A stretch of DNA of 32,220 nt from Terriglobia bacterium (GTDB lineage: Bacteria > Acidobacteriota > Terriglobia > Bryobacterales > Bryobacteraceae): NCBI GenBank assembly GCA_020073265.1, contig JAIQFN010000070.1, forward strand, positions 1 to 32,220. Reading direction: 5' to 3'. How positions within the stretch are numbered: the stretch's first letter is position 1; each line of letters begins with the position of its first letter. Both the position numbers and the translations under genes were made by a program. Under the pieces are notes generated by a model. It saw only the letters and a list, made by a program, of their open reading frames with translations, made no database searches and was not told the DNA's origin. Positions 241 through 25,315 of the stretch are shown piece after piece.

Positions 241-295
241 ATTTTGATTGGTTTCATAGGTTTTCATGACTTTTTAATGCCCAACACCCTACAGT
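241..295 (+). promoter_or_regulatory. KdpE-type promoter module 1 (upstream of the sensor kinase)
   Basis: This is a 55-bp module of 11-bp phased elements. TTTCATAGGTT (252-262) and TTCATGACTTT (263-273) are clear; weaker copies flank them. ATGAC at 266-270 is followed by exactly 19 nt and then TACAGT (290-295) as a -10 hexamer. The same geometry occurs at three other places in the window. The repeats cover the -35 position, as expected for an OmpR/KdpE-type activator that contacts sigma. It implies autoregulation of the two-component genes, with a leader of about 40 nt. Binding by the KdpE-like protein is inferred. Confidence 0.65.
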
Positions 296-340
296 GGGAA
301 TGGCTCCTCGAAAGCCTCTGGATCATCGGGTGGCGGCAAC

Positions 341-1876
341 ATGGGCGCGACGAATGTAACAGTTGGCGCAACCACGCGCGAAGGTGCGCGTTTGAGCGAC
401 GGACTGGGTAATACCATTCGGATAACGCGGGCAAGACTTGCCCCCCTGCTGCCATGTGTTCTCTCGTTGGCGGGCGTCGCGGGCTGCACCTGGATATCCT
501 TCCGTCTCGGCCAGAATCTGGCATCGGTTGGATTCCTTTATCTTGTTTGTGTCGTTCTGGCAGCGGTCTATGGCGGATTCCGGCAGGCAACGCTGGTCTC
601 GGTGGTCTCGGTGGCGTGCCTCGACTACTTCTTCAACGAGCCGATCTTCAGCTTTAGCGTCGACCGGTTGTCGAACTGGGTCGAGCTTGGCGCCTTCGAG
701 TTCACGGCTCTGGTCATCAGTCAACTTTCCAACCGGGCTCAGCTTCGGGCTTCGGAGGCGGTCGCGGAGCGGCGCGATACTACCCGGCTTTACCAGACCG
801 CGCGGCGCATTCTGCTCCTGGACAGCAGTGGCCACCCTGGCAACCTGGTTGCCTCGCTGTTTCGAGAAACGTTCGAACTGAGCGGTGTCGTGTTATTTGA
901 CGCCCTGTCGGGCACGCTGTATGAGAGCGGCGATCCCACACCGGGAATTGAACAGCGTACGCGGGAAGCATACTTTGCTGACGCGGACACCTTCATATCC
1001 ACAGAGAGGAGTTGGCTCTGTATCCTTCGCCTCGGCGTGAGGCCGGTTGGAGCGCTGGCGCTGTGCGGCACTGAAATGAAGTCCCTGACTGCTACAGCAC
1101 TGGCATCGCTCGGTGCAATCGCTTTAGAGCGGGCGCGGACCCTGGAGAAGCAGTACCACGCGGAGGCGGCGCGGCAAGCCGAACAATTGAGAACCGCGGT
1201 ACTGGATGCCCTGGCGCACAAGTTCAAGACCCCTTTAACAGTCATACGGACCGCCAGCTCGGGGCTTCCCGCAGCCGGCAAATTATCCGAACTGCAAACC
1301 GAGCTAGTCAGTTTGATAGACCAGGAAGCCCGCAAGTTGAACGAACTGGCTTCCCAGCTGGTGGGAACGCCGAAACTGGAGTCCAAGGAATTCGCACCGC
1401 AACTGGAGCCGTTGCTACTTTCGCGATTGATGAAAGCCGCTATTCAGGAACTCGACGAGCAGAGCGATCGCGATCGATTTCACGTCGCAGTTCCGGCGCA
1501 GGAGCCACCGGTGTTTGCCGACCGCGAGCTGATTCTGACGGCGCTCAGCCAACTGGTGGACAACGCGCTCAAATACTCGATCTCCGGGTCTCCCATCGAG
1601 GCCGGATTCATCGTCAAGGAAGCCGCTGTCGTGCTCACACTGCGCAGCCAAGGCTTAGTAGTGGCGGCGGCCGATCGCGAGCGCATTTTCGAACGCTTTT
1701 ATAGGGCGCCAGGAGCTCAGCAATGTTCCGCCGGCACCGGACTTGGGCTATCCATTGTCAAAACGATCGCCGCGGACCATCATGGGCACGTGTGGGCCGA
1801 CGGCGAGCTGGACTACGGGACGGTGTTCTCGCTCTCGCTTCCTGTGGGACCTAAGGGGAGCGTCTATGAACAGTAG
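341..1876 (+). CDS. KdpD-like sensor histidine kinase (DUF4118 + HisKA + HATPase), short form
   Basis: This 511-residue protein has a cluster of membrane segments at about residues 35-140, resembling the DUF4118 membrane domain of KdpD. A GAF-like stretch follows, then a HisKA dimerisation domain with the phospho-acceptor His293 in AHKFKTPLTVIRT. The ATPase domain has an N box near 407 (DNALKYS) and a G box near 465 (GTGLGLSI). Full KdpD is nearly 900 residues and begins with the KdpD sensor and USP domains. Those are absent, and the sequence upstream is promoter and IS flank, so this is a genuinely short form. The stop overlaps the regulator start by 11 bp, showing translational coupling. 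The kdpA and kdpC genes nearby support a role in potassium or osmotic sensing, but the signal is inferred. Confidence 0.85.
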   Translation: MGATNVTVGATTREGARLSDGLGNTIRITRARLAPLLPCVLSLAGVAGCTWISFRLGQNLASVGFLYLVCVVLAAVYGGFRQATLVSVVSVACLDYFFNEPIFSFSVDRLSNWVELGAFEFTALVISQLSNRAQLRASEAVAERRDTTRLYQTARRILLLDSSGHPGNLVASLFRETFELSGVVLFDALSGTLYESGDPTPGIEQRTREAYFADADTFISTERSWLCILRLGVRPVGALALCGTEMKSLTATALASLGAIALERARTLEKQYHAEAARQAEQLRTAVLDALAHKFKTPLTVIRTASSGLPAAGKLSELQTELVSLIDQEARKLNELASQLVGTPKLESKEFAPQLEPLLLSRLMKAAIQELDEQSDRDRFHVAVPAQEPPVFADRELILTALSQLVDNALKYSISGSPIEAGFIVKEAAVVLTLRSQGLVVAAADRERIFERFYRAPGAQQCSAGTGLGLSIVKTIAADHHGHVWADGELDYGTVFSLSLPVGPKGSVYEQ

Positions 1877-2585
1877 TCGGATACTGGTGGTTGACGATGA
1901 GCCGCAACTGCGTCGCGCGTTGAGGTCCACGTTGTCCGCGCTCGGATTTGTGGTGGCTGACGCGGAGACCGGAGAGACAGCCTTGGCGAGCGTCCGCGCA
2001 GAGAAATTCGACCTCATACTTCTGGACATCAACATGCCCGGACTCAGCGGACTCGAGACCTGTCGCGCCATCCGGGCGAGGTCGGACATAAGCATCCTTA
2101 TGTTGACCGTCCGTGATCGAGCGGAAGACAAAATCGAGGCCCTGGATGCCGGGGCGGACGGCTACGTCACCAAGCCCTTCGATGTGAACGAACTGCTGGC
2201 TCGTATTCGAGCCACGCTACGCCGCGCTCCGGCTTCCGCGCTCGGTGAATCGCGAGTGCTGCGGCTGGATGGCCAGGAAATCAGCTTTCGCGACCGCCAG
2301 GTGAGAGTCAAGGGACGCGTGACGCGGCTTACGCCGACAGAGCTCGATCTTCTGCACTACTTTGTCACACATCCTAACGAGGCCTTGCCTCACGACCGGA
2401 TTCTCCAAGCCGTGTGGGGCCCCGAGTATGGGGACGAAGTCGAATACCTCAGAGTGTTTGTGAATCAATTGCGGAAAAAGATCGAACCCGATCCCGCGCG
2501 ACCGCGCTATATTCTCACCGAGCCATGGCTCGGCTATCGTTTCGATATGCAGGAGAATGCCGCTGGGTCATACATGCAGCGGTGA
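1866..2585 (+). CDS. kdpE: KdpE-like response regulator (OmpR/PhoB family)
   Basis: This 239-residue regulator has a receiver domain with an acidic pocket (VVDDEPQ), phospho-acceptor Asp54 in LLDINMPG and the conserved lysine in YVTKPFDVNELL. A winged-helix DNA-binding domain follows at about residues 130-230, with LTPTELDLLHYF and the recognition-helix region YLRVFVNQLRKKIE. The ATG at 1866 lies inside the end of the kinase gene. Sequence and length agree with KdpE. The four phased direct-repeat promoters in the window are the natural candidates for its targets, since OmpR-family proteins bind direct repeats at about one helical turn. The assignment as KdpE rather than another OmpR regulator rests on similarity plus the kdp neighbourhood. 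Confidence 0.85.
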   Translation: MNSSRILVVDDEPQLRRALRSTLSALGFVVADAETGETALASVRAEKFDLILLDINMPGLSGLETCRAIRARSDISILMLTVRDRAEDKIEALDAGADGYVTKPFDVNELLARIRATLRRAPASALGESRVLRLDGQEISFRDRQVRVKGRVTRLTPTELDLLHYFVTHPNEALPHDRILQAVWGPEYGDEVEYLRVFVNQLRKKIEPDPARPRYILTEPWLGYRFDMQENAAGSYMQR

Positions 2586-2658
2586 CGTGGCGAAGGCCGC
2601 AGGCATAATGCACCGTGTGACCCCATGGCAGAGCGTGTTATCACTGCGCGGCGTATGA

Positions 2659-3147
2659 TTGGCAGCGGGAGGTTTGGTCCTGTCCGACGAACCAGAGAAG
2701 AGCGTGGATGAGAGGTTGGCTAGCATCGAGCGCGGCCTGGAGCATCTGAAAGCCGGCCTCGGGGTGCTTGGCATCACGCCTTGCAGTTGGTGCGGCATTT
2801 ATTACCGGCGTTCCGATCCGGGCGCCTTATTCCACTGCCGCGAGTTCGTTTGCTATAACTGCGTTCCCCAGTGGTGGTTGGACCGAAGTCCGGAACTCAG
2901 CGCCGATGATCGGCAAAGAGCCGAGCGCGAGCTGCGCCGCTGGCTGGTCAGTCATCACCATGCGGAAGTGATTGGTAAGTCGGGAGACTTGCCAGAACCT
3001 GATCGGCTGCTGATGAAACTGGTCACCGGCTGCGAACAATGTGATGCCAGCGGAAAGACCTATGCGGGAGGGCGGTGCTCTCACTGCGACGGCCGAGGAA
3101 CCGTATGGGTGGTGGTACGCGCCCCGGATTTTCCTCACTCTGCATAA
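2659..3147 (+). CDS. Zinc-ribbon protein of unknown function
   Basis: The reading frame gives up to 162 residues with two Cys-rich clusters. The first is CSWC followed later by C-x5-C-x2-C (CREFVCYNC) at about residues 42-72. The second is CEQC...CSHCDGRG at about residues 127-151, resembling a DnaJ-type CxxCxGxG zinc module. The start is unsure: TTG at 2659 gives the full length, GGGAGG at 2667-2672 could serve a CTG at 2680, and an in-frame GTG lies at 2704. No function can be assigned; a zinc-binding chaperone-like or regulatory role is only a guess. It lies 73 bp after kdpE on the same strand. Orphan promoter module 4 begins 23 bp beyond its stop and points back across it. Confidence 0.6.
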   Translation: MAAGGLVLSDEPEKSVDERLASIERGLEHLKAGLGVLGITPCSWCGIYYRRSDPGALFHCREFVCYNCVPQWWLDRSPELSADDRQRAERELRRWLVSHHHAEVIGKSGDLPEPDRLLMKLVTGCEQCDASGKTYAGGRCSHCDGRGTVWVVVRAPDFPHSA

Positions 3148-3170
3148 GCGCAGTGCGCAACTAGGGGCAG

Positions 3171-3225
3171 CGCATAGGCGTAAAGGCCTGAAAGAGTCAT
3201 AGAAAAACCATGAAGAAAACATGAA
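3171..3225 (-). promoter_or_regulatory. KdpE-type promoter module 4 (no clear target gene)
   Basis: On the minus strand this 55-bp module reads TTCATGTTTTC, TTCATGGTTTT, TCTATGACTCT and TTCAGGCCTTT in consecutive 11-bp steps. ATGAC (3200-3196) is followed by exactly 19 nt and TATGCG (3176-3171) as the -10. It is close to module 3, sharing the fourth 11-mer exactly and a downstream GTTGCGCACTGC. It points left into the 3' end of the convergent zinc-ribbon gene, where I see no credible minus-strand gene. It may be a duplicated copy whose gene was lost, or it may make an antisense or small RNA. Confidence 0.55.
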
Positions 3226-3346
3226 GAGAGTGAGGTTGATCTTGGCGCATTTCGATCTGCCTAACTTCAAGAAACACAAATCTGTTAGCGGAAGTGGTCA
3301 TCTGAATTGATGTGGCGCACGAGCCGGCTCGTGGGTGAGCATTCGG

Positions 3347-4024
3347 TTACCAAATGAAAGGCACCAGTCGATACTTCACCTTGTTTCGATATTCCGAGTA
3401 ACCCGGCAGGCTCCTGGCCAGGAACTCTTCCTCATCCAGGAGCCTCCATACGATGACCAGCGCAAGCGGAATGGCCGCGAACAATCCAAACCACGAGCCC
3501 AGAGCAGGAGCTACGCCTAAGAGCATGATCAGGGCTCCCAGGTACATCGGATGGCGCACCAGCGCATACGGTCCAGACGAGATGACTTTCTGCCCGGAAT
3601 CGACTTCAATAGTTGCCGAGGCGAAAGTGTTCTCTTTGAACACGAGAAATATGACCAGCATCCCCAGCGCGACGAAAACGTCTCCCGCAACCACGGCATA
3701 GAGCGGCGCCACGGACCATGCGAAGCGATGATCCATGGCCGGCAAAACGATCACTGCGATGAATGCTATGGTTGCGATGAATTGTATGACCTTCTGGCTG
3801 CCCTCTTTCTCCGCGCCTGGACCCGAGTGCATTCGGCGCTCCAGAAGTCTCGGATCGTTCTTCATAAGGTACAGGGTGATCGCCAGCACCGACGCGGAAA
3901 ATACGACCAGAAATATCCAGGCTTCGCGGTAATCGAGAGTCCAGGCCGGAAGGAACAGCAACACTCCCATGCTCGCGAGGAGCCACACGAGGCCGCCAAA
4001 CGCTCTCTTGTCCAGATCTTTCAT
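3347..4024 (-). CDS. Isoprenylcysteine carboxyl methyltransferase (ICMT)-family membrane protein
   Basis: This is a polytopic membrane protein of about 225 residues with four to five hydrophobic segments. The C-terminal signature of the ICMT/PEMT family is clear: GPYALVRHPMYLG, then LLDEEEFL, PGYSEYRNKVKYRL and a terminal VPFIW. Family members are SAM-dependent methyltransferases acting on membrane substrates; the bacterial substrate here is unknown. I prefer the ATG at 4024, which has GGGA six bases upstream; a GTG at 4045 would add seven residues. It is the last gene of the run that starts with the porin at 9495, about 120 bp after the small membrane protein gene, so co-transcription is likely but not certain. 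Confidence 0.8.
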   Translation of the reverse strand: MKDLDKRAFGGLVWLLASMGVLLFLPAWTLDYREAWIFLVVFSASVLAITLYLMKNDPRLLERRMHSGPGAEKEGSQKVIQFIATIAFIAVIVLPAMDHRFAWSVAPLYAVVAGDVFVALGMLVIFLVFKENTFASATIEVDSGQKVISSGPYALVRHPMYLGALIMLLGVAPALGSWFGLFAAIPLALVIVWRLLDEEEFLARSLPGYSEYRNKVKYRLVPFIW

Positions 4025-4142
4025 CTCTTGTCCCAGCCCGGCCACGCCGTGCTCGGTTCTGTGGATGACAACCCGGTCTACTTCATCACCGGGACTTGTG
4101 CTGACGCCTCTATTATCTGCAAGAGCGTTCGGCCCCGTTTGA

Positions 4143-4385
4143 TCAGTTCGCTTGATGAGCCACCCGAACGATTAGTCGGATCGCGAAGGCGAGCAAGCCG
4201 ATACCCAGAAGGCGCAGGAAGAGTTTCTTGCCCCAGTCTCCCGGATTGACCTCCGGAAAAAGCTGCAGGCTCTCGTGAACCAGATTTCCAAAGCGAGCAG
4301 GCGCGATGAGCATGAATAGGCCGACGCCGCTCCATGCCAGCACCATTGCCGCGTAAATAAAGACGACGCCAAGAAGACGGCTCAT
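4143..4385 (-). CDS. Small two-helix membrane protein, unknown
   Basis: This 80-residue protein has two hydrophobic helices, at about residues 3-29 and 57-75, joined by a polar loop containing FPEVNPGDWGKK. I do not recognise a family. The ATG at 4385 lies 7 bp after the permease stop, and AGGA just upstream overlaps the permease end, so translation is probably coupled. Its position suggests an accessory subunit of the ABC transporter or of the methyltransferase that follows, but there is no direct evidence for either. Confidence 0.65.
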   Translation of the reverse strand: MSRLLGVVFIYAAMVLAWSGVGLFMLIAPARFGNLVHESLQLFPEVNPGDWGKKLFLRLLGIGLLAFAIRLIVRVAHQAN

Positions 4386-4392
4386 CGTATCC

Positions 4393-6147
4393 TCATGTGA
4401 ATTCGAGTTTGAATCTGGTGGAAGCCAAGGTGTATAGCCGTCTCCAGATAAGACGGTTTACAGTGACTACCATGGCGCTGATGACAATCGTCGCTCCCAG
4501 CAGCACCGGGAAGTTTCCGGCGTCGGTGGCACGGCTGATTACCGCACCCAGCCCGGTTATGGAGAAGGTCTGGTTCCGGAATCGGAAGTACTCCGCGATG
4601 ATGCTCGCATTCCACGCTCCGCCTGAGGCAGTGACGAAACCGGTGATCAGGTAAGGGAAGATGGCCGGCAGGATCAGTTTGCGCCAGCGCTGGATTTTGC
4701 TCAAGTGAAAGGTCTCACAGACCTCTTTCAGGTCCGAAGGGATGGCGCTTGCGCCGGCGATCACATTGAACAGGATGTACCATTGCGTACCCAGCAACAG
4801 CAAGACAATCGAGGCGATTCCCAACCCCCCGCCCACGCGGATTAGAAGCAACAATACGATTGGAAACAGGGCCGGCGCCGGTATGGAAGCCGCAATCTGA
4901 GCCATGGGCTGGGCAATCGCGGAAAGTTTTGGCCTTAGTCCGATGAAGACTCCTACCGGGATCGTCCAGAGAGCTGCCAGCACCAGCGTGAGCTCGATGC
5001 GAAGAAAAGTGGCCCCTGCGCCCCAAAAGATGTCCCGCAGGTCCGATCGCGCCAGCGAGGTGAGCATCAGGCCCATTTTTCCAACCGCGTAGAGGACACC
5101 ACCTGTGGCCAGCGCGGCCAGAATCCACGAGGTCCATTTGGCCAGATTGCGTTCGTGATGAGCGGCCTGGGGGACCGCGTCGCCGCGCGCAAAATACAAT
5201 GTCAGCGCTTCGCGGGCCGGCGCCACCGACACGCTTGCGATTCGCGACAAAAGCTTAGAGCGCCGCAAGAAATTGAGAACGGGCGAACCGGGCGACTCTG
5301 AAGCTTCCACCTGCTCGAATTTGAACTTCTCGCTCCAAGCGATGATGGGACGCCAGACGAGCTGGTCAATCAGAATGATCACCGCAACCATCGCGATCAA
5401 TCCCCAAACGATGGATCGAGTCGCCCCGGCATTGGAGGCGGTCTGCAAGTACGAGCCGAGGCCGGGAAGCCGCAGGTCGCGGTTTCCCAAGACGAACATC
5501 TCGCATACCATCAGAGCAAACCAGCCTCCGGCGACCGACATCATCGAATTCCAGATCAGACCAATAGCCATGTGCGGCAGCTCCAACTGCACCAGCTTCT
5601 GCCACCAGCTCAGGCGGTACAGGCGCGCGGCCTCGAGCATTTCGCGCGGGATACTCTTCAGCGAAGAGTAGACGCTGAAGGCCATGTTCCACACTTGCCC
5701 GGTAAAGATCAGCAGGATGGATCCCAGCTCCACTCCCAGTTGTGTGGTTGGGAACAGCGCGACCATGGAAATCATCACGCCGGGCAGGAAGCACAACACC
5801 GGGATCGACTGCAGCGTATCGAGCAGCGGAATCATGAGCCGCTCCGCCTTAGCGCTGTTCGCGGCGACATATCCATAGATCACGCTGACGGCCAGACTGA
5901 GAAAATACGCCACGGCAATGCGCGCGACTGAAAACAAGGCATAGGCGGGCAGCGCGGATGGATTGAGGTCAATGTTGGCCTGGGTATTGACCGGGGCCGT
6001 CCAGTATCGAGCCAGCGAAAGCAGACCATAGAACAAAGCCATCCCCGCGAAAGCGATAGGAAGGTCAGTCAAAAGAGAAGACACTCTAGTGGAGAAACTT
6101 CCCCAAGGCGGGAGGCGCGCGATCGTTTTTTCGGACGGAGAGGACAT
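4393..6147 (-). CDS. ABC transporter double permease (NitT/TauT-like, two fused membrane domains)
   Basis: This 584-residue membrane protein contains two binding-protein-dependent permease domains in one chain, at about residues 70-270 and 365-575. Each has a loop of the kind that contacts the ATPase: EAARLYRLSWWQKLVQLELP in the first half, and KEVCETFHLSKIQRWRKLIL in the second. Such fused permeases of nearly 600 residues occur with NitT/TauT-type ATPases that carry an AAA-associated C-terminal domain, as here. The ATG at 6147 shares one base with the ATPase stop (TGATG); an upstream TTG at 6150 is less likely. No substrate-binding protein is encoded nearby. The substrate is unknown; anion or sulfonate annotations of this family are mostly by similarity. 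Confidence 0.85.
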   Translation of the reverse strand: MSSPSEKTIARLPPWGSFSTRVSSLLTDLPIAFAGMALFYGLLSLARYWTAPVNTQANIDLNPSALPAYALFSVARIAVAYFLSLAVSVIYGYVAANSAKAERLMIPLLDTLQSIPVLCFLPGVMISMVALFPTTQLGVELGSILLIFTGQVWNMAFSVYSSLKSIPREMLEAARLYRLSWWQKLVQLELPHMAIGLIWNSMMSVAGGWFALMVCEMFVLGNRDLRLPGLGSYLQTASNAGATRSIVWGLIAMVAVIILIDQLVWRPIIAWSEKFKFEQVEASESPGSPVLNFLRRSKLLSRIASVSVAPAREALTLYFARGDAVPQAAHHERNLAKWTSWILAALATGGVLYAVGKMGLMLTSLARSDLRDIFWGAGATFLRIELTLVLAALWTIPVGVFIGLRPKLSAIAQPMAQIAASIPAPALFPIVLLLLIRVGGGLGIASIVLLLLGTQWYILFNVIAGASAIPSDLKEVCETFHLSKIQRWRKLILPAIFPYLITGFVTASGGAWNASIIAEYFRFRNQTFSITGLGAVISRATDAGNFPVLLGATIVISAMVVTVNRLIWRRLYTLASTRFKLEFT

Positions 6148-7856
6148 CAATGGTCCGCAAGATTAGGCTGGTGCATCAATAGCCTGTCGTTCTCGGAATC
6201 GTACGCGAAGATGTCGCCATACCGGCCCCAGTTCAAAGCGGTCTCGATTTGCCGCTGGACATCGTCGTCGGAGAAGTGCTCATCCAAAGTGTCACGAAAC
6301 AGCTCCACGGGCATGCTATGGTCGGACTTGCTTTGAAGGGCGCTGTTCATCTGCTGAAGTAGTGTGACGTGGGCCAGCGCAGCTTCGCGGAACTGCACTT
6401 TTCGCGTCGAGATATCGGCTTCCGCAAACGCCTTGCCGCTCGAAGTGAGTTCAATATCGCCGTGTTCAGATTTTACGAACGAAAGCAGTGTCGCCGCCTC
6501 CACGATCGGCAAGATGTCGTCCAACTCCATGAGGAGTTCCTCCGCAATGCGGTACAGGTCCTCCTTGCCACCTCGGTCATTCAGCAGTTCAACCAGGCCT
6601 GCGATCGAACCCGGCCGCGCATGCGGGAGCATCCGGTATGACTTTTTCACCTCGCGATCCGCGGCGGCAGGTGGTCCAGCCGCGAGTTCCGGTTGCGTCA
6701 TGAGCTTGTAGATGTAGTCCACGTACAGAAGAAACTCCGCGGAGTTACGCTCGCGCGGTTGCGGGAAAGGGACTCGAAAATCCGCGCGGACCTTGGCAGG
6801 ATCGCGCCCTAGAACGATGATGCGGTCCGCGAGCAGCACCGCTTCCTCGATGTTGTGCGTCACCAGGAAAATGCTCTTGGTCGGGATCTTTTTCCCGAGC
6901 CAAAGCTCCATCAATTCGCCGCGCAGGTTCTCCGCTGTCAGAACATCGAGTGCTGAAAATGGTTCATCCATGAAGAGAACTTCGGGCTCCACAGCCAGGG
7001 CTCGGGCGAATCCCACCCGTTGCCGCATGCCTCCAGAGAGCTCTTTGGGGTACGCAGTTTCGAATCCTTTCAAACCTACGGAGTGCAGCGTCCGGAGAGC
7101 CCGGCGATGGCGCTCCGCGTGCTTCACTCCACGCGCTAGCAGCGGGACCTCCACGTTCTCCAGCACCGTGAGCCAGGGAAACAGCGCGAAACTCTGGAAC
7201 ACGATGGCCGCGTTGGGGGTGGATTCGCTCAGGGGTTTGCCGTGCCAGAGAACCTCTCCGGCGGATGGAGCCGTAAGACCCGAGAGCATCCGTAAGAGCG
7301 TGGATTTGCCGGAGCCAGACGGTCCGAGAAGCGCGACAATCACGCCCGGCTCCACTGACAGGTTGGTGGGCGCGATGACCTGAATTTGTCCGCCATCTGG
7401 GCGCTGGAACGCCTTCTCAATCCAGCGCGCCTCGATGATCGGCTGCATCGGCGCGGCGGCGCGGTCCTGGACGGAAATTGAAACTCCGCCCGCAAGGCTT
7501 GCGGCGGGTTGGTGCTCCGAAAGTTCGTCTGTGATCTGCTGCCAGGCTCCCTCGGGCAGCTCGTCGAGAAACATCGAGCGCTCAATCGGATTCATTTTCT
7601 CGACGACCGCGATCATTTGGTCTTTCGAGAGGCTGTGCAGTAGAACGAACGTGTGGTAGTAAGGAAAGATCGGCGCGAGCTTTGCGGCAAGCTCGATCGG
7701 CAAACGGCGGAACAGGACCTGCTGGTCCTCGTAGGGCATGCTCATGAACGTATCCGCCGCGACCGTGGGGTCCAGCCGCTGCAGGATCGCGACGGCCCGA
7801 TCCCAGCCTCCTTGCCCCAGGATCGTTTGCAGCTCGTCGGCTCTGGTCCGATTCAT
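6147..7856 (-). CDS. ABC transporter ATPase with MgtE_N-like and AAA-associated domains
   Basis: Numbering from the ATG at 7856 gives 569 residues. Residues 1-115 form helical repeats of the MgtE_N type (VAILQRLDP, LFRRLPIELAAKLAP, LFLDELPE-like). A NitT/TauT-type ATPase follows: Walker A GPSGSGKST near 178-186, Q loop FQSFALFPW near 220-228, signature LSGGMRQR near 273-280, Walker B VLFMDEPFSALD near 293-304, and switch His334. Residues 400-569 match the AAA-associated C-terminal domain (GGKEDLYRIAEEL, NWGRYGDIFAYD). The MgtE_N part is unusual, as it normally gates Mg2+ transporters. A TTG at 7871 would add five residues; no start has a good ribosome-binding site. It is coupled to the permease gene through TGATG. 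Confidence 0.85.
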   Translation of the reverse strand: MNRTRADELQTILGQGGWDRAVAILQRLDPTVAADTFMSMPYEDQQVLFRRLPIELAAKLAPIFPYYHTFVLLHSLSKDQMIAVVEKMNPIERSMFLDELPEGAWQQITDELSEHQPAASLAGGVSISVQDRAAAPMQPIIEARWIEKAFQRPDGGQIQVIAPTNLSVEPGVIVALLGPSGSGKSTLLRMLSGLTAPSAGEVLWHGKPLSESTPNAAIVFQSFALFPWLTVLENVEVPLLARGVKHAERHRRALRTLHSVGLKGFETAYPKELSGGMRQRVGFARALAVEPEVLFMDEPFSALDVLTAENLRGELMELWLGKKIPTKSIFLVTHNIEEAVLLADRIIVLGRDPAKVRADFRVPFPQPRERNSAEFLLYVDYIYKLMTQPELAAGPPAAADREVKKSYRMLPHARPGSIAGLVELLNDRGGKEDLYRIAEELLMELDDILPIVEAATLLSFVKSEHGDIELTSSGKAFAEADISTRKVQFREAALAHVTLLQQMNSALQSKSDHSMPVELFRDTLDEHFSDDDVQRQIETALNWGRYGDIFAYDSENDRLLMHQPNLADH

Positions 7857-7871
7857 CGATGCACCAAACAA

Positions 7872-8055
7872 TTACTATGAGGGGTCAGTCTCATCGGGAC
7901 TCACCGGAAAGCCGGTTCCCGGCCCGGTCCGCAATCTCTCATCACTGCCGCCGACGAACAAACGCCGGGCCGCTTGCAAGCGAAACGAGTCGCCGACCTC
8001 CGACGAAGTGATCCACTGCGGCGGGAATCACAGTCCGGACAGCCCTAAACCACGA
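7872..8055 (-). other. Leader region of the ABC operon with a strong hairpin
   Basis: About 180 bp lie between the porin stop and the ATPase start. They contain a two-part stem at 7895-7921: CGGGA, a CTC bulge, ACCGG, loop AAAG, CCGGT, TCCCG (given on the + strand). On the minus strand it is followed by GATGAGACTGACCCC; a similar GATGAGA occurs further upstream. I compared it by eye with cobalamin, ydaO (c-di-AMP), Mn and Mg riboswitches and found no convincing match. It could be an attenuator or an unknown leader RNA, or simply an intercistronic processing site. Confidence 0.3.
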
Positions 8056-9495
8056 TCACCAGCCTCCCTCTTTCGCACCAAACCACCACACGAGCCCTAG
8101 CGTGGCGGTATTCTGTTCCTTCTTGAGGAGGCCCAGCACGTCGGTCAGGAAATAGGGGTGGTTTGAAAAATCCCGGCGCCATTCCTGCCGCAGCAAAAAG
8201 CCTTCTGCCAGCCGTTGTTCGAATGTCAGCGTGGTCTCTTTCACAATCTGTGTGGCTCCGGTGAACAGGCCGCCGCGGTCGGAGAGGTACTCGGTCCTTC
8301 CGGCGATTGCTATCTTTGGCGTGAATTGAAAGCGCGCGTACGCGGCTCCACCGCTTGTACGAGCTGGGGGCGATGAGGTCGCCAAGCGCTGAATAACATA
8401 ATCGCCCTCCACAGCTAGGGTCAATTTGGGCGATGCCTGCCACGTAAGGTAGGTATCCAGGATGTGCAGTTTCCCTTTAGGCGCGTTCGGGATCGGCTCA
8501 AACGACGTCCCTTGTTGGGTGGGGAGGTTCGATCCCGTCGCGGCGGGCACAAACTGGACATCGGGGTGTTCCTGTCCCAGATAGTAGTTGACGGTCCACG
8601 CCACGTTCTTATGCGGTTGGAGGCTCAGTCCGATGAGCTGATCCTTGAAGTTATTAAAGGGCTCGGTTTGTTGAGTACCGTTGGTGACCCAATAGTTCAC
8701 GGCTATAGTGTCGTTGAATTTGTAATTTACGCGCGCGCCGGTATGATAGAAAGGAAGAAAGTTGAACCAAAAGGAACGCGAGTAGTTCATCTGATCCTTC
8801 GTGTAGTTTCCCTCGATGCCCAATGAACTGGCCCACTTACCGAAATCGACGGTCAATCCACTCCCCACGGGAACCACATAGGTCCCATACGCTTGGAAGA
8901 TGTTGCGCCAGACGTTCGGACGCAGTTCGTTAACGGCGTTGCCCTGCAACGTTTCGGTTGCCTGTCCGAATTGCAAGTCGAGGCGGAGACCGAATCGTTT
9001 ACCGTGCCCAGGATCGGCAGGATTCTCAAGCACAACATCCGCCTGATTCAGGCTGAAGGAATTACTGCTAACGTCGTAGGCGCGGAGGAGATTTACCCGG
9101 CCGATAGGATTGTTGAAGTTGTAACCATAGTAGCCGTCTAACAGGAAATTGACCGTCGTGCCTCGTAGAACGTCGCTTCCGCCAGGCAAGGTACTCGATG
9201 CCGTCGTCGGATTGGCGGCCGGCGTGTTCACAAGCGCTTCTGACGTTTGGTTCGGTGCTGTCGAAGCTGGCACACTGGTTTTGCCCGAGGCTCTTAGCTT
9301 TTCTTCCAGATCGTCTACTCGCGCCTGAAGCGTGTGTACGAGTCTAGTCAGCTCGGCAATCTGCCGATTGGTCTCCGCTGGATCTGCTCGATTCTCCTGC
9401 GCGCGCGCCAGGATGGGGAAAAGCGCCGGCAACACAAACCATGCCGTGGTTCTTCCGAGAGTGAAATGTAGTCCTTTGCATTTGTAGTGGAACAT
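8056..9495 (-). CDS. Outer-membrane beta-barrel porin (BBP2/OmpL-like)
   Basis: This 479-residue protein has an N-terminal signal sequence of about 32 residues (hydrophobic TAWFVLPALFPILARA). A short coiled coil follows at about 42-68 (IAELTRLVHTLQARVDDLEE), then a Ser/Thr/Pro linker. The rest is a barrel rich in alternating aromatic strands, beginning LDGYYGYNFNNP and ending WWFGAKEGGW; the pattern fits the putative porin family BBP2. The ATG at 9495 has AAAGG with suitable spacing. Promoter module 3 lies about 110 bp upstream, so this gene leads the operon that continues into the ABC transporter. A role as outer-membrane entry for the same solute is plausible but inferred. Confidence 0.8.
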   Translation of the reverse strand: MFHYKCKGLHFTLGRTTAWFVLPALFPILARAQENRADPAETNRQIAELTRLVHTLQARVDDLEEKLRASGKTSVPASTAPNQTSEALVNTPAANPTTASSTLPGGSDVLRGTTVNFLLDGYYGYNFNNPIGRVNLLRAYDVSSNSFSLNQADVVLENPADPGHGKRFGLRLDLQFGQATETLQGNAVNELRPNVWRNIFQAYGTYVVPVGSGLTVDFGKWASSLGIEGNYTKDQMNYSRSFWFNFLPFYHTGARVNYKFNDTIAVNYWVTNGTQQTEPFNNFKDQLIGLSLQPHKNVAWTVNYYLGQEHPDVQFVPAATGSNLPTQQGTSFEPIPNAPKGKLHILDTYLTWQASPKLTLAVEGDYVIQRLATSSPPARTSGGAAYARFQFTPKIAIAGRTEYLSDRGGLFTGATQIVKETTLTFEQRLAEGFLLRQEWRRDFSNHPYFLTDVLGLLKKEQNTATLGLVWWFGAKEGGW

Positions 9496-9605
9496 AACCC
9501 TGCCTTTGGTGAAAGACGGAGTCCCATCGTCAATGCCCGGATCGTCACACAGCTAACGCTTCGCCTTACAGAGGGCAGTGCGCAACGGGGAGCACCGCTT
9601 GTTCG

Positions 9606-9660
9606 AGCATATGCGGAAAGGCCTGAAGGAGTCATAGAGAAGCCATGAAGAATTCATGAA
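9606..9660 (-). promoter_or_regulatory. KdpE-type promoter module 3 (porin/ABC operon)
   Basis: On the minus strand this is the clearest module: TTCATGAATTC, TTCATGGCTTC, TCTATGACTCC and TTCAGGCCTTT follow each other in 11-bp steps. ATGAC (9635-9631) is followed by exactly 19 nt and TATGCT (9611-9606) as the -10. The repeats overlap the -35 region. The module abuts, and slightly overlaps, the stop codon of the broken gene upstream. It drives the porin and probably the ABC transporter genes. Confidence 0.65.
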
Positions 9661-10281
9661 GATTGGGCAGCCCGTCCTCCTTGCTCCGGAAAGTCGCGCA
9701 TTCGACAAACGCATCCCACGCATTCGTCAACTGCCGGTCCATCAAGAAAGTGGTCTCGCCCGTGACCTTCCGGCGACACTGGGTGGTCGGCCAATACACC
9801 GACACATTCCCGCGGCCGTCCAGTTCGATGAAAGCGCCCGCGACCAACGCAACTGCACGGATGGATCATATCCGTGACTTGAAATGGCGCCAGCGCCCGT
9901 CGGCAGACTGAGCGATAAGACCAGCGAAACGTCGAAACCGCCTGGCGTAGGGCCTAGTTGCTGCTTCATCCCGACCGCAAGATCGCCAAAGCCGGAAGTC
10001 ATTCCCACCAGGCCAAAATAGTCCGGAGCAATCAGACGCAGCTCAGTTTTCGATGCTACCCCGAAGCGCAGCAACGTCTCCGGAGCATCGGACGTGCGTT
10101 GTCCCAGGCTCAGGGTTTCTGCGAATCCGTTCTCGGCCTGGAGACTCCCGGGCGGGACCACGATGCTGGAATCGGTGACCGAGGGCCGATCGGTAGCGAT
10201 CGGAGTGGCTGCGGCGTCGCTTCCAACCGCGTGCCCGGATATCGCAACAACCATGGAGGCAACCAGGATCTGTCTCGTCAT
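9654..10281 (-). pseudogene. MetA-pathway/'transporter' outer-membrane protein gene, frameshifted and truncated
   Basis: The ATG at 10281 starts a protein with a signal sequence (ILVASMVVAISGHAVG) and features of the Phenol_MetA_deg outer-membrane family (TDRPSVTDSS, FGDLAVGMKQQLG). The frame is intact to AAGM at about 9805. There one base is missing, and homology resumes one frame over as VSVYWPTTQCRRKVTGETTF and LMDRQLTNAWDAFVE. A second shift near 9692 leads to DFPEQGG and a stop at 9654. The final beta strands expected for the family (about 40 residues) are absent, the gene ending where promoter module 3 begins. It starts 10 bp after kdpA, in the same operon. Sequencing error cannot explain the missing 3' end. 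Confidence 0.75.
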
Positions 10282-10291
10282 TGTTGAAAGC

Positions 10292-11980
10292 TCAGTGCTG
10301 AAAGAACTCCACGATGGGACCAAGCGCGAGAGCAGGAAAGAAGCACAGCGCTCCGACCAACAGAATTGTGCCGAAAACCAGCGCACCGAAGGTCGGCGTA
10401 TCGCTGGGCAGGGTCCCGGCAGTGATAGGAAGGCGGCGCTGGGCGGCCAGCCGTCCGGCCAACGCCAGAGCCAGTACCGCCAGCCCGTACCGGCCAGCCA
10501 GCATGGCAATCGTCGTGGTGAGGTTGTAGAACACGCCGTTCGCGTTCAATCCCGCCATCGCCTGTCCATTGTTGGTCATCGAGGAAGCATACGCGAACAG
10601 TATTTCGGTGAACCCGTGCGGTCCCGAGTTGGTTACCAGCCCGGACCGGCCAGCGCTGGTGCCGACCGCGACGGCGGTCAGCGCGAGCACCACCATGGGC
10701 GTCAAGAGACTATACAAAGCGATCCAGCGCGTTTCGCCCGGACCGATTCTCTTGCCCAGGTATTCCGGCGTGCGGCCCACCATCAAGCCTCCCAGGAACA
10801 CACCCACCAACGCGGCCATGACGATGCTGTACACGCCTGCTCCGAGCCCTCCGAAAACTACTTCGCCCAACAGCATGCAGACTAAAGGCGCGAGCACGCC
10901 CAGTGGCTGATAGGAGTCGTGCATGGAGTTGTAGGAGCCGGTTGACGTATTCGAAGTCACGATGGCCGTCAACACCGACTCACCGACGCCGAACCTTACT
11001 TCCTTTCCCTCCATGTTTCCGCCCAGGATGTGCAGTCCGGCCAGTTGTGGCGGTGATTCCGACTCCGCCCAATCGCAGACCACCAAGCCAACCAGGAACA
11101 GCGCGACCATGACCAGCAGCAATACCCAACCGGCCCGCGGCCTGTACGTGATGTGGCCGAATGTGAGCATGAGCGACGCGGGAAGTACAGCGATCGCAAG
11201 CATTCCAAGAAAGTTCGTCAAAGGCGTGGGATTCGCGTAGGGATGGGCGCCGTTGGCGTTGAAGAAGCCGCCGCCGTTGGTGCCCAGATTCTTGATAAAT
11301 TCCAGAGCGGCCACCGGTCCCTGCGCAATGGTTTGGGTGCGGCCCTCCAGAGTGTGAGCCAGAGTGTAGGGCGCCATGTTCAATGGAACGCCTTGCCAGA
11401 TCAGAACCAGGCTGCCAAGCAGCGTCAACGGCACCAGGACATAGAGCAATGACCGAATAAGGTCTACCCAGAAATTGCCGATGGTAGCCGAGCGTTCTCG
11501 AGCAATGCCTCGGATAAAGGCGAATCCAACCGCCAGCCCGGCAGCACCGGCCAGGAAGTTCTGTGCAACCAGCCCAATCACCTGCGCCAGGTACCGGAGC
11601 GTGTTCTCCCCGCCATAGGCCTGCCAGGTTGTGGTTGTTGAGAAACTCACGGCGGTGTTAGCAGCCAGGTCCTTAGTCATGGGCGTTGTCAGGTAGGCGT
11701 CCACGGGACCGCCGGGCAGCCACCGTTGGAAGATCAACACCAGAAACAGCGCAATTGCGCATCCTGCGCCGAACAACAGGAAGCAAATGATGTAGACCCC
11801 TGCGGTCATCTCTTGTTCCGGGCGCACACCGAGCAAGCGATGCAACACCGCCTCGACGGGACACAACAGCGGATCCAGAAAAGTGCGCCGGCGCTGGCCC
11901 ACGCGCGCAAGATACAGGCCTGCCGGCTGGGCGAGTCCCACCACGATCAAAAGGAAAACGATGTATTCCAGCCAGCGCAT
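10292..11980 (-). CDS. kdpA: Potassium-transporting ATPase subunit A
   Basis: At 562 residues this matches the usual KdpA length of nearly 560. KdpA is the channel-like K+-binding subunit of the KdpFABC P-type ATPase. All four pore regions can be seen: WQAYGGENT after a TTTT stretch, GTNGGGFFNANGAHP followed by NPTPLTN, YNSMHDSYQPLG with GEVVFGGLGAGVYS, and NSGPHGFTEILFAY with MTNNGQAMAGL. Nothing suggests decay. The start ATG lies 6 bp after the kdpC stop. The order kdpC-kdpA with no kdpB between or beside them is abnormal: KdpA needs the KdpB ATPase to pump, so kdpB must be elsewhere in the genome or the complex is not functional as a pump. Confidence 0.95.
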   Translation of the reverse strand: MRWLEYIVFLLIVVGLAQPAGLYLARVGQRRRTFLDPLLCPVEAVLHRLLGVRPEQEMTAGVYIICFLLFGAGCAIALFLVLIFQRWLPGGPVDAYLTTPMTKDLAANTAVSFSTTTTWQAYGGENTLRYLAQVIGLVAQNFLAGAAGLAVGFAFIRGIARERSATIGNFWVDLIRSLLYVLVPLTLLGSLVLIWQGVPLNMAPYTLAHTLEGRTQTIAQGPVAALEFIKNLGTNGGGFFNANGAHPYANPTPLTNFLGMLAIAVLPASLMLTFGHITYRPRAGWVLLLVMVALFLVGLVVCDWAESESPPQLAGLHILGGNMEGKEVRFGVGESVLTAIVTSNTSTGSYNSMHDSYQPLGVLAPLVCMLLGEVVFGGLGAGVYSIVMAALVGVFLGGLMVGRTPEYLGKRIGPGETRWIALYSLLTPMVVLALTAVAVGTSAGRSGLVTNSGPHGFTEILFAYASSMTNNGQAMAGLNANGVFYNLTTTIAMLAGRYGLAVLALALAGRLAAQRRLPITAGTLPSDTPTFGALVFGTILLVGALCFFPALALGPIVEFFQH

Positions 11981-11986
11981 AGACGG

Positions 11987-12670
11987 TTAGTGTGACGTTG
12001 AGGGTCCGCCTTGTTGCATTTGGTCTAACGCTAGATTCAGCTCGAGCACCGGCACCCGCGGGCTGCCCAGGAATCCGAACTGCCGCCCCTCCGTGTGATC
12101 CGCTACCCGGCGCCGGACAGCCTCTTCACTCAGGCCGCGCGCCCGTGCCACGCGCCGAATTTGCAGCGCCGCATTGGCAGGCGTGATGTGGGGGTCGAGC
12201 CCGCTCCCCGAGCGGGTCACTGCATCGATGGGAATTGGGGCGTCGGCCCTCAGGCCGTTTTGCGTGCGGTACTCCGCGGCCAGTTGCCGGATGCCGGCGA
12301 AGTCGGCTGCACCACTCTTCAGCTTAGGATTGTTGGGGCCGAGGTTTGTGCCGCCAGACGAGGTTCCGTCGTAGCCGGCGCCGGCCGCCGACGGCCGCGA
12401 TTGAAAGTATTCGGGCCGCGTGAATTGCTGTCCGATGAGGTCTGAACCGATGACGGCTCCGCCTCGCATGATCAGGCTCCCGCCGGTCTGGCGCGGGAAC
12501 AGCGGCCAGGTAATCGCGAACAACAGGCAAGGGAAACCACAGCCGCACAGTAGTGTTAGCACCAGCACGCTTAAGATCGCCGGGCGGATTTGCTCGCTCA
12601 GCTTGGCTTGCGGGACAGGAGGAAACATCTCCTGCCCCGTACTATCCGCAGGCTCGTTGGAGTCGCTCAT
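11987..12670 (-). CDS. kdpC: Potassium-transporting ATPase subunit C
   Basis: This 227-residue protein has one N-terminal membrane helix (about residues 30-55) and a periplasmic domain with KdpC hallmarks: GSDLIGQQF, PEYFQSRPSAAGAGYDG, SGGTNLGPNNPKL, PIPIDAVTRSGSGLDPHITPA and FLGSPRVPVLELNLALD. KdpC is usually about 190 residues; the extra length is a polar N-terminal extension. KdpC stabilises the KdpFABC complex and aids ATP use. It is the first gene of its operon, placed directly behind promoter module 2. The predicted leader is only about 12 nt, so ribosome binding may depend on the weak ACGGATGG just before the ATG. Confidence 0.93.
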   Translation of the reverse strand: MSDSNEPADSTGQEMFPPVPQAKLSEQIRPAILSVLVLTLLCGCGFPCLLFAITWPLFPRQTGGSLIMRGGAVIGSDLIGQQFTRPEYFQSRPSAAGAGYDGTSSGGTNLGPNNPKLKSGAADFAGIRQLAAEYRTQNGLRADAPIPIDAVTRSGSGLDPHITPANAALQIRRVARARGLSEEAVRRRVADHTEGRQFGFLGSPRVPVLELNLALDQMQQGGPSTSH

Positions 12671-12688
12671 AGGACCATCCGTAACTGG

Positions 12689-12743
12689 AGACTAGCAGAA
12701 ACCAACTGAGGAAGTCATAAAGAAGCCGTAAGGAATCCGTAAA
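12689..12743 (-). promoter_or_regulatory. KdpE-type promoter module 2 (kdpCA operon)
   Basis: On the minus strand, TTTACGGATTC, CTTACGGCTTC and TTTATGACTTC are consecutive 11-bp repeats. ATGAC (12718-12714) is followed by exactly 19 nt and TAGTCT (12694-12689), preceded by TGC as in an extended -10. The core repeat differs from module 3 mainly by ACGG in place of ATGG. Its place directly in front of kdpC supports the reading of all four modules as Kdp regulator targets. Confidence 0.65.
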
Positions 12744-23869: not shown

Positions 23870-25315
23870 TTACGCGGCAGGTTTTTCTTCGATTGGGACC
23901 AGTTTGTAGCCCAGTCGCTGCGCCTGCCGTTTGAGTTTCGCTTCGAGGCGTTTCTCGCGCTCGGCATCACGCTGGGCCCACAGCGAAATATCGTATTCCA
24001 CTTGGTTCTTCACCATCGTGTAGAAGATGATCGCGATTTTATGGGCCGTTGACGTGGTGGCCGCCGGCGCGTCCATTTTGCTCTTCATCCGGCGGAGATA
24101 GTCGCCCAGCGGCGATTGGTCATTATGCAGAGTATACGCCGCCAGTCGAAATAGGTCCCCCGCCCGGTTGTGTACCCTGCGCACTCCCCTCCACAACACC
24201 CGCCCGCCACTGATGTCGTTATCCGGGCACAGTGCCAGCCAGGACACGAAGTGCCCTGCCGTCGGCCATCTCGACATGTCCCGCCCCACTTCGCTGAACA
24301 ATGTCAAGACCATCGCCATCAGCCCGGGGATCTGCGTCAGGTCCACACCGAACAGTTTGTAGGACTCCGTTCGAAGCTCGAAACCCGTCTTTGGATTCAC
24401 GTTTTTCTTCTTGCGTCCGTGCTGCTTTTTCTTTCGGTCCGGTGGTAATGGCTTCTCTGCGGGGTCCACCCGGGGCTGGAACGCCACCAACAACTTCTCG
24501 ATCTCTTCATCGCAAGCGGCGATCTGCGTCTGGTAATGTTGGTACATCTGCCGCGACTGCTTCAGCGTGAAAAGATGCTCCGGCCGCCAATTGCCCACCA
24601 GCGATTTGCGAATCGTCTCTTCGCTGGCATGGATGCGCCGGTCCCGCAGTTTCGCCAACTCCACCGGGTCGCGTTGCCCGTCCCCAATGGCATCCACGAT
24701 AGCCAGACCTGTCAATCCGGTGATGTCGCTGATCACGTGATGGATCTGCACATTCATCTGCGTCAGCGCTTTCTGCATGTGCTGGATATGCTGGCTGGTC
24801 ATCTGCACCAGATCGCTGCGGTGCCGCATCAATGACCGCACCGCGCATACTTCCCCGTCCGGTCGAAATGCAGCGCGCAGCAGGCCTACCGAATGCAGGT
24901 ATTGCAGCCATTGGCATTCGTGCCAGTCGGTTCGCCGTCCCGGTACGTTTTTCATGCCACGGGCGTCCACCAAACAGGGTTTCACCCCGTGTTGCTCCAG
25001 CACATCGTAGGTCGGAATCCAGTACACTCCTGTGCTCTCCATCGCCACCGTGGTGACCCCACAACTCACCAGCCACTTGGCCATGCTCTCCAAATCTTCG
25101 GTGAAGGTTGAGAATACTCGCACCGGATGCTCATCCCGATCCGGCGGAACGGCTACATAAATTTCCTTCGCACCGATATCAATTCCAGCTGCGTTCACTT
25201 CCAGTGAGGGTCGATCTTCCAGGCACATCCCTTTCCTTTTTCGGCCCCGTTTGCCTTTGCCCGCCGCAGTCTTCTGCTCACCGAGCGGTTTGGAATGCTT
25301 CTTCTGTTTGGACAT
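23870..25315 (-). CDS. IS110-family transposase (bridge-RNA-guided recombinase family)
   Basis: This 481-residue protein has a basic N-terminus and a RuvC-like domain: Asp46 in GIDIGAKEIYV, Glu93 in AMESTGVYW, Asp117 in CLVDARG, and Asp130 and Glu133 in RRTDWHECQWL, so the fourth acid is Glu rather than the common Asp. The C-terminal Transposase_20 domain has IPGLMAMVLTLFSEVG, FVSWLALCPDNDISGG with the probable catalytic serine, and HNRAGDLFRLAAYTLH. IS110 enzymes recombine DNA using a structured RNA from the element's own non-coding end. The gene is intact. It lies next to an ISL3-type remnant, in a zone where insertions have accumulated. Confidence 0.92.
   Translation of the reverse strand: MSKQKKHSKPLGEQKTAAGKGKRGRKRKGMCLEDRPSLEVNAAGIDIGAKEIYVAVPPDRDEHPVRVFSTFTEDLESMAKWLVSCGVTTVAMESTGVYWIPTYDVLEQHGVKPCLVDARGMKNVPGRRTDWHECQWLQYLHSVGLLRAAFRPDGEVCAVRSLMRHRSDLVQMTSQHIQHMQKALTQMNVQIHHVISDITGLTGLAIVDAIGDGQRDPVELAKLRDRRIHASEETIRKSLVGNWRPEHLFTLKQSRQMYQHYQTQIAACDEEIEKLLVAFQPRVDPAEKPLPPDRKKKQHGRKKKNVNPKTGFELRTESYKLFGVDLTQIPGLMAMVLTLFSEVGRDMSRWPTAGHFVSWLALCPDNDISGGRVLWRGVRRVHNRAGDLFRLAAYTLHNDQSPLGDYLRRMKSKMDAPAATTSTAHKIAIIFYTMVKNQVEYDISLWAQRDAEREKRLEAKLKRQAQRLGYKLVPIEEKPAA

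Follow-up and report, generated by a model that had tools for sequence, protein, structure and literature searches.

What reads a 55-bp arrangement of phased repeats that recurs four times on one contig of an acidobacterial genome, and which genes does it control? The window, i.e. the whole 32,220-nucleotide stretch of contig JAIQFN010000070.1 from a Terriglobia bacterium (family Bryobacteraceae), carries the four 55-base stretches, termed S1–S4, at the positions given by the original prediction, an earlier note on this DNA. Comparison of the window copies with sites in relatives revealed a box comprised of four half-sites, YTTAYG, set in 11-bp steps and followed at a fixed distance by a −10-like hexamer. 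To judge from its sequence and context, the box is very likely the operator-promoter of a KdpE-type response regulator that controls kdp, porin, and other genes.

Architecture of the box and its copies in the window

The four copies are as follows.

241–295 (+): S1, half box ahead of the sensor-kinase/regulator operon; units 3–4 at 263–279; −35-like ATGACT at 266–271 and −10-like TACAGT at 290–295; units 1–2 degenerate
12689–12743 (−): S2, full four-unit box ahead of kdpC-kdpA; −35-like ATGACT at 12718–12713 and −10-like TAGTCT at 12694–12689; 18 bases to the kdpC start
9606–9660 (−): S3, full four-unit box ahead of a BBP2 porin, an ATP-binding cassette (ABC) ATPase, and a permease; −35-like hexamer at 9635–9630 and −10-like TATGCT at 9611–9606
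3171–3225 (−): S4, full four-unit box with the altered hexamer TATGCG

The original prediction described four copies of one module built from three phased 11-bp units and ending in TAnnnT. The repeat layout holds, with four units rather than three; S2, S3, and S4 are full boxes, whereas S1 has only units 3–4 plus the −10-like hexamer, and TAnnnT is present in three of the four copies, S4 being the exception.

Read unit by unit, the consensus is YTNAYGnnnTC, YTTAYGnnTTC, TTTATGACTTC, and YTTATG, followed by 10 weakly conserved bases and TAnnnT. Its letters are our reading of a table of 70 non-window sites (training sites included), selected for a score of 20 bits or more with a matrix of the box alone and for TA at the fixed offset. 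Within this table the A at position 4 is conserved at 96–100% in each of the four units, T occupies position 2 in 90, 97, 73, and 96% of sites in units 1–4, respectively, and position 1 is mostly T or C (T in 66, 37, 69, and 49%). Unit 3 stands apart in that its columns C8, T9, and T10 are 99% conserved, and the conserved ACTT is confined to it (ATGACTTC). Columns T2, A4, and G6 of unit 4, which reads TTCAGG, CTCAGT, or TTAATG in window copies, are conserved at 96, 100, and 86%. The T, A, and final T of the hexamer all reach 100%, the TA by selection of the sites and the final T unselected. Mean column identity across 22 sites was 72%.

The sigma-70 −35 consensus is TTGACA, with the −10 element TAnnnT 16–19 bp after the −35 hexamer. 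The ATGACT in unit 3 matches TTGACA at four of six bases and sits exactly 18 bp ahead of the TAnnnT hexamer, so the box has the layout of a sigma-70-type promoter, from which S4 deviates. When boxes were located with a 39-column matrix blind to the hexamer, TAnnnT was found at the expected offset in 52 of 70 held-out boxes, with the next-best offset reaching 3, a test that is partly circular because the hexamer was part of the model with which most of these loci had been retrieved. At kdpA loci picked by gene alone, 11 of 13 non-training boxes (at least 12 bits) have TAnnnT at the expected offset and every other offset occurs at most once. Both counts agree with the earlier claim that the invariant spacing goes beyond chance. 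In one locus of genome G004 (L082, ∼10327–10403, −), four 11-bp units follow one another, but the usual offset lacks TAnnnT and none of the labelled target genes lies in the stretch.

S3 is the top-scoring site of the whole genome. With the 55-column matrix of the 70-site table, S3, S2, S4, and S1 score 61.2, 55.5, 43.0, and 5.1 bits, respectively. S1, which is separated from the kinase open reading frame (ORF) by 45 bases, shows nothing recognisable as unit 1 and has its unit-2 hexamer shifted by one base; over columns 23–55 (units 3–4 and the −10) it scores 24.2 bits, a value with no equal in 3 Mb of first-order Markov sequence. S4 lies between the convergent ORFs 2659–3147 (+) and 3347–4045 (−) and, read in its sense direction, leads into neither. 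It is identical to S3 at 47 of 55 bases, including 8 of 10 in the unconserved spacer, and the same 12-mer, GTTGCGCACTGC, follows both boxes, 19 nucleotides past S3 (9586–9575, −) and nine past S4 (3161–3150, −). S4 is probably a duplicated and decayed copy of doubtful promoter activity, or else a predicted binding site lacking promoter function.

Recurrence of the box in the genome, family, and phylum

A matrix built solely from the sites of six relatives gave S2, S3, S4, and S1 scores of 42.3, 50.1, 30.6, and 9.2 bits, compared with 12.5 bits as the highest score in 4 Mb of null sequence. Twenty column-permuted decoy matrices produced no position of at least 15 bits in 2.44 Mb (both strands), whereas the real matrix produced 85 in the same sequence, a count that includes training sites and neighbouring registers. 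Two covariance models were used for wider searches, R1 built from eight sites and R2, which replaced it, from 22. S1 was excluded from both and kept as a test because a MAFFT alignment of only the four window sites had set it one unit out of register; it went unreported in the genome searches with R1 and R2. Some early matrices, including one of 14 sites, contained S1, and the S1 scores from those are no evidence.

A scan for hundreds of unrelated matches, the test set beforehand in the original prediction, returned only nine matches at E ≤ 10 with either model in the own 6.4-Mb genome, seven of them strong; weak sites may be missing, as 150 of 406–542 first-look candidates were scored. All nine fall on three contigs bearing kdp or kinase/regulator genes. 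The strong sites comprise three in the window, three on contig C38, and one on contig C111 ahead of kdpC, and both weak matches are on C111. The C38 sites precede a serine/threonine (Ser/Thr) protein kinase (13570 in locus L035), a small ORF and SecDF (16052 in the same locus), and a small ORF followed by kdpA-kdpB-kdpC. A weaker box on C111 (L038, 3086–3140) lies ahead of a von Willebrand-domain protein; this contig also carries three KdpE-like regulators, an ammonium transporter, and a BBP2 porin. No Rfam family matched at gathering scores across the window.

R1 found sites in eight of 25 genomes at E ≤ 0.1, and R2 in 37 of 101 genomes of the host family at E ≤ 0.01, spanning 26 of the 76 sampled genera, the own genome being included in both counts. 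In the family search 56 candidates per genome were scored under stricter filters, so that all site counts are lower bounds. Its table holds 75 places, 17 of which are training sites and 58 held out, G096:C625:13697 being counted as held out though its 39-column box equals that of a training site. Target labels are tblastn matches to genes of the own genome. Among 56 of the held-out places, 25 stand before kdp operons, 13 before BBP2 porins, six before a Ser/Thr kinase, three before kinase/regulator genes, and one before SecDF, with eight having no recognised target; the two further places, both in G004 (C12:151360 and C37:76110), have none either. A recurrent target type thus follows 48 of 58 held-out boxes, or 41 when the Ser/Thr kinase and SecDF labels, which derive from the own C38 sites, are dropped.

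Strong matches were few outside the host family: counting the own genome, the phylum-wide search gave matches at E ≤ 0.01 in 15 of 199 genomes. In G212, G221, G273, and G281, which belong to another family of the same class, the box lies ahead of kdpA but lacks TA where the −10 would be expected; two sites in G305 adjoin kinase/regulator genes.

Candidate target genes and regulator, and proposed mechanism

The genes adjoining the window boxes are listed below.

341–1876 (+): sensor histidine kinase with DUF4118, HisKA, and HATPase_c domains
1866–2585 (+): KdpE-like OmpR-family response regulator with receiver and Trans_reg_C (winged-helix) domains
11987–12670 (−): kdpC
10292–11980 (−): kdpA, with no kdpB beside it
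8056–9495 (−): BBP2 (OmpL-like) beta-barrel porin, the first gene past S3
6147–7871 (−): ABC ATPase with an N-terminal MgtE domain (MgtE_N) and a C-terminal AAA-associated domain (AAA_assoc_C); gene order suggests a shared operon with the porin
4393–6150 (−): ABC permease (BPD_transp_1)

Three copies had been placed ahead of genes in the original prediction. S2 and S3 are indeed full boxes in that position, S1 is a half box, and S4 is without a gene, as it was placed there. Elsewhere in the window, 23870–25315 (−) encodes an IS110-type transposase.

The link to kdp could be measured independently of the box search. Of 37 KdpA matches, seven yielded no locus and two had fewer than 300 bases upstream, leaving 28 genes; a box of at least 15 bits lies within 1.5 kb upstream of 19 of these (13 of 22 without training sites), the place expected of a KdpE operator, and of none of 18 trkH loci. 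Moreover, the box is present in 19 of 31 genomes with kdpA (E ≤ 1e-100) versus one of 30 without (Fisher p = 1e-6), all 61 presumably being among the 101 genomes searched, and the sole box genome without kdpA, G057, has a kdpA fragment beside its box. The own genome has one kdpB above the family cut-off, on C38, and three kdpA matches, on C38, in the window, and on C111, where kdpC precedes a kdpA cut by the contig end. A similar C-A pair lies ahead of a full kdp operon in L118 (G080), and an extra kdpA follows kdpC in L080 and L081.

The porin and ABC transporter, which the original prediction had both tied to the Kdp system, fared differently. For the porin the tie stands: 13 held-out boxes precede BBP2 genes, BBP2-like genes also occur inside kdp clusters (L119, L121, and L138), and the predicted membership of the porin with the box-controlled kdp genes is well supported. 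For the ABC transporter it finds less backing in other genomes. Among 13 ABC contexts taken from 25 other places, four (in G004, G005, G096, and G112) are near kdp, regulator, BBP2, or box features and nine show none. The order in G112 is kinase, regulator, ABC, permease, box, kdpABC, i.e. the ABC pair is in a kdp cluster, ahead of the box. No binding-protein family was seen among the scanned ORFs neighbouring the ABC ATPase. The link of the ABC transporter to Kdp is weak and rests, in the own genome, on gene order past S3.

The best PDB sequence matches of the window regulator are 6lgq, named as a response regulator, followed by KdpE (4kny and 4kfc); the aligned stretch of 6lgq reads identically to that of 4kny, and among PDB sequences the regulator is closer to KdpE than to RegX3 or MtrA. 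Arg193, Arg200, and Thr215 of Escherichia coli KdpE, which matter for DNA binding according to the abstract of PMC3264566, are kept in 45 of 45 rows of homologues with at least 200 aligned residues. These rows represent 43 distinct genes, the window gene included (two genes are doubled by overlapping stretches), and not all of them adjoin a box. On our reading of the PDB alignments, RegX3 and MtrA do not have Arg at the position of Arg193. The ten named entries that match the regulator best are metagenome-assembled genomes labelled Acidobacteria or its subgroups (Terriglobia and Acidobacteriia), including two Bryobacterales and one Solibacteraceae. The regulator gene is found directly upstream of box and kdpA in L040, L044, and L049, and in held-out loci such as L119, L121, and L138. 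A domain scan of the window kinase did not find the KdpD domain (PF02702), so a fused KdpD is not seen there. On C38 (L036, 5807–8029) two stand-alone KdpD (PF02702) proteins, one with a Usp domain, follow kdpC separately from any kinase, and such a pair follows kdp operons in many relatives.

From the observed sequence, phasing, spacing, gene context, and conserved residues we infer a mechanism in which the DUF4118 sensor kinase would signal potassium shortage and two dimers of the phosphorylated regulator would bind the box in tandem. The four half-sites would lie on one helix face, from about −61 to −23 if the hexamer is the −10 element that sets the start site. Unit 3 would double as a −35 element built into the operator, and this dual role could be why unit 3 deviates from the other units and why its distance to the hexamer is fixed. 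The regulator would then recruit RNA polymerase at a poor −35 and switch on the kdp genes and the BBP2 outer-membrane porin and, in some genomes, its own genes, the Ser/Thr kinase, SecDF, and the stand-alone KdpD domains after kdp or porin genes. In the window, S2 would drive kdpCA and S3 the porin, possibly together with the ABC genes in one operon, and S1 would weakly drive the two-component genes. The arrangement suggests that potassium uptake across both membranes may be switched on together. A more ambitious picture, for and against which we find the case evenly balanced, is a family-wide, possibly wider, acidobacterial potassium-shortage regulon spanning the whole envelope, in which a single KdpE-type regulator uses a four-unit operator merged with the −35 to induce jointly the Kdp pump, a BBP2 outer-membrane porin that would let potassium in, stand-alone KdpD sensors, the Ser/Thr kinase, SecDF, and kdpCA modules lacking kdpB.

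Rival readings and known systems

Several observations count against a KdpE-type operator-promoter. Ten of the 58 held-out boxes precede no recognised gene, nine of 28 kdpA upstream regions stay below 15 bits, and S1 is weak, its 9.2 bits with the six-relative matrix being equalled six times in the 4-Mb null. Four of the 13 porin labels are matches of 29–31%, two boxes precede one and the same porin (L133), and a box stands directly ahead of the ABC gene in none of the 13 other contexts. No window protein reached the cut-off of an NCBIfam KdpD model, and the regulator scored 178.7 bits against an NCBIfam KdpE cut-off of 325 bits, for which reason it is termed KdpE-like rather than certified KdpE. 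The MtrA and KdpE models of NCBIfam tie for it, and with five further own-genome regulators at 44–56% identity it is one of several candidates.

It is accordingly conceivable, if unlikely, that the box serves another OmpR/PhoB-family regulator, e.g. a PhoB- or MtrA-like one, with the kdp genes being only some of its targets. The tie between the two models and the presence of a Ser/Thr kinase and SecDF among the targets would fit this, and PHO boxes are likewise 11-nucleotide direct repeats, sometimes several per promoter (PMC4415409, in the passages available). The half-site YTTAYG, however, is near the TTTATA and TTTACA of KdpE and unlike the CTGTCAT of the E. coli PHO box, matches concentrate at kdp loci, kdpA and the box co-occur, and the PDB sequences favour KdpE over RegX3 or MtrA. 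A reader other than a response regulator, namely an alternative sigma factor recognising the conserved unit 3 and the −10, is less probable again. Unit 3 and TAnnnT are the best-conserved parts at rigid spacing, and one C111 ORF has a weak match to sigma-70 region 4 below the Pfam cut-off, but the 11-bp phasing also holds for units 1, 2, and 4, whose conservation a sigma factor would not require, and the hexamer resembles a housekeeping −10.

That the window copies reflect recent local duplication of one promoter, and no selected regulon, draws on the likeness of S3 to S4, with their shared spacer bases and downstream 12-mer, and on the lack of a gene at S4. For S4 alone duplication is likely. 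For the element as a whole it is largely refuted, since the element recurs, ahead of like targets, in 26 of the 76 genera sampled, with 72% mean column identity over 22 sites, and we rate it marginally below even the sigma-factor reading. Least credible of all is chance or low-complexity similarity, which the T-rich, simple units might invite; the 12.5-bit null maximum, the 20 decoys devoid of a 15-bit position, and the nine own-genome matches leave it hardly any room. Taken together, the kdp, BBP2, and two-component contexts in relatives, the KdpE-like regulator, and the likeness of the half-sites lend good support to the KdpE regulon proposed in the original prediction.

Direct-repeat operators of 11 nucleotides are already known in the OmpR family (KdpE and PHO boxes). 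What the present data add is a predicted KdpE-type operator of distinct architecture, recognisable in 26 sampled genera of a single acidobacterial family. Through it, further genes become candidates for a potassium regulon, an outer-membrane porin foremost among them, and for uncharacterised genes it points to a condition under which they could be tested. A 2017 paper states, in the passages available, that KdpE sites were by then mapped in no more than four species (PMC5401905), and no description of a four-unit, −35-overlapping box or of a porin link in Acidobacteriota was found among the listed titles and abstract openings of open-licence PMC papers.

PhoB sites are known to replace the −35 element. 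The box resembles the PHO boxes of PhoB/PhoP promoters in its tandem direct repeats of variable unit number, and differs from them, as far as the passages of PMC4415409 go, in half-site sequence and in the genes concerned. The Mycobacterium smegmatis KdpE site likewise lies upstream of kdpFABC, but is described in part of PMC5401905 as an A-rich, 22-bp motif with no noticeable similarity to other KdpE motifs. In Deinococcus radiodurans, too, the regulator binds a T-rich region upstream of kdp, and the N-terminal half of KdpD is depicted as a distinct gene part, with the kinase encoded separately next to it; no tandem four-unit box is described there in the passages of PMC5716572. Closest is E. 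coli, where, according to passages of PMC3264566, the kdpFABC promoter has the KdpE half-sites TTTATA and TTTACA, separated by 5 bp, within a 23-bp element that spans −72 to −50. Both have T-rich, direct 6-bp half-sites with A at position 4 and an 11-bp step upstream of kdp, and the window regulator shares Arg193, Arg200, and Thr215 with E. coli KdpE. The first two half-site bases of KdpE sites are given in that source as T, invariant across genera, whereas position 1 here is mostly T or C; we therefore call the box KdpE-type and not an E. coli-type KdpE site. Unlike the two half-sites described for E. coli, the box has four, extending over the −35 in fixed phase to the −10, and it is found ahead of porins, two-component genes, a Ser/Thr kinase, and SecDF as well.

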